A stretch of 35,111 nucleotides of DNA from Chloroflexaceae bacterium (GTDB lineage Bacteria > Chloroflexota > Chloroflexia > Chloroflexales > Chloroflexaceae). The stretch's first letter is position 1, and every line of letters begins with the position of its first letter. The position numbers and the translations under genes were made by a program. The stretch spans positions 1 through 35,111 of the forward strand of contig JAAUSQ010000014.1 of NCBI GenBank assembly GCA_012033195.1, written 5' to 3'. The notes below the pieces were generated by a model. That model was not told the origin of the DNA. It made no database searches and was given only the letters and a program-made list of their open reading frames with translations. Positions 20,984 to 23,863 of this stretch are shown here, piece after piece.

Positions 20984-20990
20984 AATGGCT

Positions 20991-21743
20991 ATGATACACC
21001 AGAATGAAATAGCATATGTCGTGCCAAAGCGGGTGCTGGTCGTTGTGGCGCATCCGGACGATATCGACTTTGGCGTTGCAGGCAGTGTCGCCCGCTGGGT
21101 GGGCGAAGGTGCCGAAGTAACCTACTGTATTATTACAAATGGTGCAGCCGGCAGCAACGACCCGGCAACCGACCTGCGGGAACTGGTACGGACCCGCGAA
21201 CAGGAACAACGAGCGGCGGCGGCGGTGGTGGGCGTGCGGGATGTGCGCTTCCTGGGGTATCAGGATGGGGTATTGCAGCCGACGCTGGAGCTACGCCGCG
21301 ACATTACCCGTATTATTCGGGAGGTGCAGCCCGACCGGGTGGTAACGCAGGACCCGACAACGGTCTTTGCAAGTGATAGTTACATCAACCACCCTGATCA
21401 TCGGGCAGCGGGTGAAGCAACACTATATGCGGTGTTTCCGAGTGCCGAAACGCGCCCGGTCTTTCCCGAACTGCTGGCAGAAGGATTGGAGCCGCACCAC
21501 GTGAATGAGCTGTATCTGAACCTGACGCTCAACCCAAATACGGCCATTGATATCTCGGAAGTGATTGACCGCAAGATGGAAGCATTGCTCTGCCACACAT
21601 CGCAGAATACCGCCGAAGCAGCCGATTGGCTGCGTGAGCGCAATGCAGAAGCCGGGAAAGCATATGACTACGCATACGCGGAAGTATTTCGGGTGATGCG
21701 TTTTATTCGGGGCCAGGAGGTAGACGAAGAGGCACTGAGCTAG
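20991..21743 (+). CDS. PIG-L/LmbE-family zinc deacetylase
   Basis: This 250-residue cytoplasmic protein contains the family's zinc motif AHPDD near residues 20-24, preceded by the beta-strand RVLVVV, and the third ligand region in NHPDHRAAGEATLYAVF near 130. Relatives remove N-acetyl groups from GlcNAc conjugates, as in mycothiol, bacillithiol and GPI synthesis, but many Chloroflexota paralogues have unknown substrates. I chose ATG 20991 over 20985 because the promoter at 20955-20983 would start the transcript there. It is divergent from the translin gene. A GC-rich hairpin just after the stop (21745-21765, no T-run) could end transcription. Confidence 0.9.
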   Translation: MIHQNEIAYVVPKRVLVVVAHPDDIDFGVAGSVARWVGEGAEVTYCIITNGAAGSNDPATDLRELVRTREQEQRAAAAVVGVRDVRFLGYQDGVLQPTLELRRDITRIIREVQPDRVVTQDPTTVFASDSYINHPDHRAAGEATLYAVFPSAETRPVFPELLAEGLEPHHVNELYLNLTLNPNTAIDISEVIDRKMEALLCHTSQNTAEAADWLRERNAEAGKAYDYAYAEVFRVMRFIRGQEVDEEALS

Positions 21744-22394
21744 GCGGCGGGTTAGTCCCCCGTCGTCGCGTGCCACTGCAATAGGTCGCACTGGCTTTGT
21801 TACCACCCACCCATCGAGGTGGACGACTACCGCTGGTGGGTGCTGGCGTGCGGACGTGCGATTAGGCATGGGCATGGTCACACGGACAGCCGGAGATGCT
21901 GCGTCGGCCTGGGACAATTCGCAGCGCTCTGTGCAATAGCCCTGCCGTCAGACACAGACGGTAAGCTCCCAGGACGGTCGCTGGTGATGCCTTCTAGCGA
22001 CTCGCCCTTGAACAAGTAGCTCTCGTCGCAGTGCTGCGACACCTGCCAACGCCGGTTGGCAGGTGGCCCACGCTGGGCCAGGGAGATATATCCTGAAGGC
22101 TTATACACAGGAGTAACCGCAACAGACTCGCCTGCAAGAGGAACTGAGCGCGCAACTGTTCTCGTCGGGCTTGGTGGGAGAACAGCTCGCAAGCGTACAG
22201 GCCAATCGGCAACTAGTCCACTGAGCGCAGCGCTATTTGTATAAGTCTGTTCGAGTGCCCTCACTCAGGAAGATACCAGAACACGGCGGGCTACTATGAG
22301 GCCCTCTGAAACCGGGTTGGTACAGCAATGTGCCTTCTGAGCCTGTACCTCGTAAACACCCGGTGATGCACTCGAACCAATCCAAGGAGGATGT
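21744..22394 (+). other. 651-nt region without a protein gene, rich in strong hairpins (candidate large ncRNA)
   Basis: No frame shows family resemblance or a ribosome site. The region carries a dense series of perfect or near-perfect stems: 21804-21811 with 21835-21842 (8 bp), 21945-21949 with 21957-21961, 21977-21982 with 21996-22001 (6 bp), 22025-22030 with 22035-22040 (6 bp, 4-nt loop), 22040-22050 with 22055-22065 (11 bp, loop GCCG), 22065-22070 with 22074-22079 (6 bp), and 22156-22163 with 22178-22185 (8 bp). Single-stranded linkers such as GAACAAGTAGCTC lie between them. The arrangement suggests a folded RNA of 400 nt or more on the plus strand. It recalls HEARO/omega RNAs of IscB elements, which can occur without the nuclease gene; this is only a hypothesis. 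The aminotransferase gene starts at the right edge. Confidence 0.5.
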
Positions 22395-23863
22395 ATGTCT
22401 CCACTTACTGCCAATCAGCAGCAGATGCTGGCTGATAACGCCTGGCTCCATTTTTGCCAGATGGGGAATTTTGTCAGTACCAATGCGCGGCCTCTTGTCC
22501 TCGTGCGCGGGGAGGGGTCGCGCCTGTGGGATCACGAGGGCCGTGAATATCTGGATGCCCTATCAGGTCTATTTACGGTCAATGTTGGTTACGGTCGCCA
22601 CGAGATTATCGATGCTATCGCCCAGCAACTCCAATCGATTGCGTTTGTTAGCCCCTTTGGTTTCCCAAGCCTCCCCCTGCTTGAACTGGCGGGGAAACTA
22701 GCGGCGATTGCGCCGACTGGCCCGGCTTCGCGCAGCTTCTTTGTCACCAGTGGCAGCGAGGCGGTTGAAGCAGCCTTGAAGATGGCAAAAGCCTATCAGC
22801 GCAAGCAAGGCTTCCCCGAACGGACCAAGGTTGTGGCGCGGCGTGGTTCGTACCACGTGTCACGATGGGCGCACTCTCGGCAACGGGCGTGCCCGAATAT
22901 CGCAAGGGCTTTGGCCCGCTGGTGCCTGGTGCACGCCACGTCCCACCACCCTACCCCTACCGCTGCCGTCACTGTGCACAGTGTAGCGCGTGTACGGGTG
23001 GCTGCGCCGACGATTTTGAAGAGATCCTCGAATTTGAAGACCCAACCACTGTGGCAGTTGTGATTATGGAGCCAGTACAGAACAGTGGCGGGGCACTCGT
23101 GACACCGCCGATCTATATTCAGCGGGTGCGCGAACTGTGCGACCACTACGGGATTGTGCTGGTTGCCGACGAGGTCATCAATGCGTTCGGGCGTGTTGGC
23201 GGGTGGTTTGGTTCGAGCGAGCTTGGGCTACGGCCCGATATTGTGACAGTGGCAAAAGGTATCACCAGTGGCTATGCGGCGCTCGGTGCGGTCATTGCCA
23301 GTAAGCAGATTGCGGATGCCTTCCTCGGTACCGATGACAACAAGTTTATGCACGGCAGTACCTTCGGCGGGCACGTCGGAAGCTGTGCTGCTGCATTAGC
23401 AACGCTGGGTATCCTTGAACGGGAACAGTTGCCCGAACGGTCGCGGCAGGTTGGCGCGTGGCTGCTGCAACGGCTGCGCGAGGTATTTGCTGATCACCCC
23501 AATGTGGGCGATGTGCGCGGCAAAGGCATGTTTATTGCGATTGAACTGGTGCGCGACCGCGAGACCCGCGAATCGCTCTCGCAGGAAGTCCAGCTTATGG
23601 AATGGCTGAGCGACCAGTTGTTGCAACATGGTTTGATCTGTCGGGCCGACGACCGGATGGAGCCAGTTATCCAGGTGGCTCCACCCCTGGTGATGACTAT
23701 GGAAGAGCTTGACCTGCTGGTGCATCGCCTCACAGATGTGCTGCATGTGCTTGGGCGTCGCCTCGATAGCGTGCCTGCCCGGTACGCTGCGGTGCCCCTG
23801 CCTGCGGCATCAGCGGTACCACCTGTCGCCACGCCTGCGCGTTCACCCTCTATTGCGGCATAA
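22395..23863 (+). CDS. Class III (PLP) aminotransferase, one frameshift
   Basis: Repaired, this is a 489-residue fold-type I omega-aminotransferase. It has SFFVTSGSEAVEAALKMA (PLP phosphate site) near 120, LVADEVINAFGRVG near 258 (PLP-pyridine Asp), the catalytic lysine in VTVAKGITSGYAALGA near 290, and HGSTFGGHVGSCAAAL near 320. The frame is lost at 22857, where GG is read as G; restoring it gives SYHGVTMGALSATGVPEYRKG. A five-cysteine loop CRHCAQCSACTGGC sits near residues 195-208, where relatives carry fewer cysteines. Substrates are probably an omega-amino acid or diamine with pyruvate or 2-oxoglutarate; not determinable. A perfect AAGGAGG stands before the ATG. A terminator follows at 23878-23912. 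Confidence 0.9.

Follow-up and report, generated by a model that had tools for sequence, protein, structure and literature searches.

A covarying structured RNA between lmbE and a class-III aminotransferase gene in Chloroflexales, probably the 5' leader of the aminotransferase mRNA

The DNA analysed here, referred to below as the window, is a stretch of 35,111 nt from a Chloroflexaceae genome, a lineage known for anoxygenic phototrophs. Our interest was in a gap of 651 nt (21744-22394), bordered on its 5' side by lmbE (PIG-L) and on its 3' side by a gene for a class-III aminotransferase (AT), which in the window is followed by a response regulator.

20985-21743, + strand: lmbE (PIG-L), the gene directly 5' of the gap
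21744-22394, + strand: probable type A leader RNA, filling the gap between the stop codon of lmbE and the start of AT; an intergenic unit conserved in nine Chloroflexales genomes
22384-22390, + strand: Shine-Dalgarno sequence AAGGAGG of AT, read from the sequence
22395-23863, + strand: class-III aminotransferase gene (AT), with the frame broken near 22855-22865; Pfam PF00202 on both pieces

The AT gene is intact in relatives, unlike the copy in the window, where homology starts out in the 22395 frame and from 22865 continues in another; this copy may be a pseudogene or reflect a MAG sequence error. The first-pass annotation of this DNA saw no convincing reading frame in the gap, and this was borne out, as none of the open reading frames of 21744-22394 had a Pfam match. 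No repeats of the gap RNA were detected elsewhere in the source genome, in which it is present as a single copy.

The same annotation had described the gap as unusually dense in hairpins, an impression that did not hold against controls. Minimum folding energy corresponds to z = -0.70 on the + strand, an ordinary value for the composition, and to -1.72 on the - strand. The region has 5 perfect stems with 5 bp or more vs 5.1 in shuffles, and at minimum lengths of 5, 6 and 7 bp such stems are just as common in dinucleotide-shuffled sequence and elsewhere on the contig. The annotation was right about the 11-bp perfect stem closing a 4-nt loop, which is present at 22040-22065, and this single stem is unusual, being matched in 2/200 shuffles and 2/53 contig windows. 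The ordinary folding energy, together with the frameshift in the neighbouring AT, might be taken to indicate a decaying gene or a neutral, GC-rich spacer that folds by accident. Such an explanation is contradicted by compensatory changes extending over genera and families, and by strong matches of held-out models (see below), and we regard it as very improbable. On comparative sequence grounds, the gap holds a structured RNA, the reality of which is shown by its homologues and not by the stem count.

A DNA search located the stretch in relatives in the corresponding position, with lmbE on one side and AT on the other. Five of them, with the window left out, served to build a covariance model of the best conserved part (R1); because MAFFT first placed hairpin P2 wrongly in core A, variable linkers were trimmed from the training sequences, and L006 was used minus two loop bases. 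R1 matched the held-out window at 21890-22014 on the + strand (81.6 bits, E 2e-16), and a model of the 3' part likewise built without the window (R3) matched it at 22094-22230 (66.4 bits, E 6e-18). Across 82 Chloroflexales genomes, R1 was positive in nine, with one copy in each, L122 being newly found; the match in L008 is to a reduced copy (28.7 bits). Over a spread of 400 Chloroflexota, R1 matches were confined to the window's own family. AT orthologues of two further families of the order also carry the leader (L102; L103 and L104), and no type A leader was found with AT orthologues from other orders of the class. The type A comparison rests on nine sequences, few in number, and a whole-leader MAFFT/RNAalifold consensus for this type was poor. 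R3 matches below 30 bits in other genomes were treated as chance, since the top two, at 28.5 and 24.6 bits, fall on near-identical sequence, and in L151 this sequence is part of a gene that, by reading of its ORF, looks like protoporphyrinogen oxidase.

The elements of the type A leader in the window, some of them conserved and one not, are as follows.

21745-21765, + strand: P0 hairpin at the 5' end of the leader, with the motif GGGUUNGYCCCCC at 21749-21761
21898-21925, + strand: P1 hairpin GCUGCG/CGCAGC, in the R1 match; its loop CCUGGGA (21908-21914) is the putative 5' strand of PK1
21942-21965, + strand: P2 hairpin GCCGUC/GACGGU with flanks CU/AAG; compensatory changes in relatives
21967-21973, + strand: putative PK1 3' strand UCCCAGG, pairing with the P1 loop CCUGGGA; complementary in all P1-bearing members
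21977-22001, + strand: P3 hairpin GUCGCUGG/CUAGCGAC; its loop GCCUU (21989-21993) is the putative 5' strand of PK2
22040-22050/22055-22065, + strand: perfect stem of 11 bp with a loop of 4 nt, read from the sequence; its sequence is not conserved, and it falls within a variable insertion that separates P3 from core B
22094-22230, + strand: core B, AAGGC...AGGAG...GGAACUGAGCGCG (P5) GCAAGCGUACAG...GUCCACURAGCG; matched by R3 (66.4 bits, E 6e-18)
22096-22100, + strand: putative PK2 3' strand AAGGC, pairing with the P3 loop GCCUU; present in all members read
22156-22185, + strand: P5 hairpin CUGUUCUC/GAGAACAG; all five pairs vary with pairing kept
22249-22377, + strand: 3' domain with a 10-bp closing helix GUUCGAGUGC/GCACUCGAAC, a perfect inverted repeat just 5' of the ribosome-binding site

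Four of these hairpins change in sequence among relatives while their pairing is preserved. P1 reads GUUGCC/GGCAAC, GUUGCU/AGCAAC or GUUACC/GGUGAC in relatives, and both sides of its pairs 2, 4 and 6 change among seven members; P2 occurs as GCCCC/GGGGU, GCUUC/GAAGU and GCCGU/ACGGU. The arms of P3 vary around a constant GCCUU loop, with 48/48 cells of the 6-bp core paired in eight sequences and both sides of pairs 3-5 changing, and P5 is paired in 30/30 cells of six members, vs 47% with swapped arms. Taken together, P1, P2, P3 and P5 pair in 155/155 cells and 0/20,000 permutations of the 3' arms were as good, a figure that serves as a guide and carries no p-value, since it comes from related sequences in which the arms were set by eye. 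Homologues with the same folding and covarying pairs, suggested earlier as a check on the proposed large structured RNA, were found for P1, P2, P3 and P5, and that proposal gains support from the held-out model matches, the compensatory changes and the conserved synteny. Outside these hairpins, the P0 motif precedes the P1 loop by 157-198 nt in 7/9 members, including two without an lmbE neighbour, and the closing helix of the 3' domain has counterparts of other sequence in L006, L008 and L009 and is absent from L102. A separate observation is a purine-rich AGGAG at 22109-22113, conserved in relatives shortly after the PK2 strand, which is Shine-Dalgarno-like and has no conserved start codon behind it.

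Two loop-to-strand complementarities, one for P1 and one for P3, would form pseudoknots (PK1 and PK2, respectively). As the strands of both are invariant, we infer these contacts from complementarity and not from covariation; the last pair of PK1 is lost in L009. The orientation of the RNA is fixed as the + strand by G-U pairs, which would be A-C on the - strand. Core A measures 119, 122, 123, 124, 125 or 143 nt, and length differences that are not multiples of three indicate that it is non-coding, with no shared reading frame. A protein-coding function on either strand was ruled out by these non-triplet length changes and the absent Pfam match; a conserved protein frame, named at the outset as one observation that would speak against an RNA, was found on neither strand.

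A scan of the gap and its homologues with all families of Rfam 15 gave no match, the HEARO, T-box and tmRNA models recommended for checking included, and ARAGORN reported neither tRNA nor tmRNA. The first-pass annotation had suggested, as a speculation, a stand-alone HEARO/omega RNA, i.e. a guide RNA of an IscB-type nuclease. The resemblance is a loose one of size, GC content and phylum: both RNAs are large, GC-rich and composed of several hairpins, and HEARO (RF02033) occurs in Chloroflexota, these genomes among them. In contrast to HEARO, the gap RNA lacks a model match and an IscB neighbour and lies beside AT. RF02033 did not match the window at gathering nor at E up to 10, and did not match the homologues, whereas in a positive control the same model found HEARO in 10/41 related genomes, a sub-threshold match in the source genome included. 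It was reported to match 65% of IscB/HEARO nuclease 5' UTRs (PMC9755519). The neighbours of the gap are PIG-L and a class-III aminotransferase and not a nuclease, a comparison by which stand-alone HEARO copies would be missed too; the gap RNA is also single copy, tied to AT and distributed along the AT gene tree. Given the working control, the lack of an RF02033 match leads us to set the HEARO assignment aside, its chance of being correct being negligible. On another contig of the source genome, a HEARO-like match occurs at G000:C106:6903-7111, with 73.3 bits falling below the cut-off of 83. The Chloroflexi-1 RNA (RF01698), found in Chloroflexus aggregans (PMC2864571), matched neither the window nor any homologue scanned, and in a literature search of open-licence papers the gap RNA was nowhere described.

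The association of the RNA with its neighbours is one-sided. AT is its 3' neighbour in 8/8 genomes with a readable 3' side; in G071 leader A is at a contig end, with the next gene beyond view. Among the 18 AT-bearing Chloroflexales, leader A was found in 8, a second structured RNA (leader B, described below) in 10, and neither in 0. A gene other than lmbE precedes the RNA in L103 and L104, where the RNA and AT nevertheless remain together, and no leader was found in 11 family members whose lmbE has no adjoining AT; in 9/11 of these, the response regulator found after AT in the window comes closely behind lmbE. These changed neighbours and the absence from AT-less relatives indicate that the RNA travels with AT, not with lmbE. 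The same genomes bear on the idea that the region is a long 3' untranslated region of lmbE instead of an AT leader. We consider this improbable, although in most relatives, as in the window, the region begins immediately at the stop codon of lmbE: L103 and L104 contradict it by having the RNA and the P0 motif with no adjoining lmbE, and AT-less relatives keep an intact lmbE while the RNA is gone. It is rather unlikely, too, that the gap is transcribed into a non-coding RNA of its own, trans-acting or structural, to which AT is merely a stable neighbour. The large size, the presence of several contacts resembling pseudoknots and the lack of obvious masking of the Shine-Dalgarno sequence by the 3' closing stem would be in keeping with such an RNA; the coupling of a structured leader (A or B) to AT in 18/18 AT-bearing Chloroflexales genomes, the persistence of the RNA-AT pair when the upstream neighbour changes, and the fact that the RNA was never seen elsewhere in these genomes argue against it.

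As far as can be read from sequence, the ~600-nt + strand RNA is probably the 5' leader of the mRNA of AT, an omega-aminotransferase, with sensing assigned to its 5' part and control in cis to its 3' part; its conserved structure has the orientation of the coding strand and immediately precedes a single gene. In the proposed mechanism, the folded 5' part (P1-P2-PK1-P3-PK2) would act as the sensor, the likeliest signal being a metabolite from an amine or amino-acid pathway; expression of AT would be controlled in cis by the 3' part of the leader. The guess about the signal comes from gene neighbourhoods pointing to amine or amino-acid catabolism: the surroundings of AT in L142 encode a second class-III aminotransferase along with an aldehyde dehydrogenase and a saccharopine dehydrogenase-like protein; in L140, an amidohydrolase and an M20 peptidase are encoded close to AT. 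A search of the leader for an expression platform found no terminator-like site, and alternatives sequestering the Shine-Dalgarno sequence were, by inspection, not conserved. The leader is possibly an orphan riboswitch. It resembles orphan riboswitch candidates and other structured mRNA leaders (e.g. PMC2864571) in being covarying, confined to one strand, placed just 5' of one metabolic gene and apparently equipped with loop pseudoknots, but it differs in falling outside Rfam 15, in being longer (~600 nt) and in being limited to Chloroflexales among the genomes searched. Its length, great for a riboswitch, the frameshift in the AT of the window, the lack of a recognised expression platform, the small number of sequences and the failure to see this leader at AT orthologues of other orders count against the leader reading.

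The type B leader is a structured RNA found 5' of the same AT in L017, L018 and L023-L030, which form the sister clade. It contains the motif GCGUCGGGGCAYGUGCCYACGAUGUG, shows compensatory changes of its own and has a covarying multibranch 3' domain. The model built for it (R2) finds exactly the ten type B genomes and one further match, in G049, which at 25.7 bits is weak and was treated as chance. Both types share the gene context, the position, a pseudoknot-like contact of a hairpin loop and a closing 3' domain; however, their sequence models do not cross-detect, and the 3' domain of type B folds into a multibranch structure carrying a conserved motif of its own. Together, the types add to one gene a pair of RNA architectures that are uncatalogued and supported by covariation; their association with that gene is clear, and the ligand pathway can be put to the test.

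The distribution of leader types agrees with the AT tree, type A being basal and type B occurring in one clade that adjoins L008, the genome with the reduced type A leader. This topology suggests, but does not prove, that B replaced A. If the leader is a riboswitch, it would represent a new class, and the change from A to B before one gene would show remodelling of a large leader RNA. We put forward as a tentative possibility that the leader represents a new class of riboswitch, exceeding most known ones in size, with an amine or omega-amino acid as the sensed compound and the omega-aminotransferase under its control, and that it was remodelled into type B in a Chloroflexus-like clade with its job kept. 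The reduced leader of L008 (847-1111) lacks a normal P1 and P2 and retains P3 and core B; as its AT adjoins the type B clade on the tree, this leader may be an intermediate.
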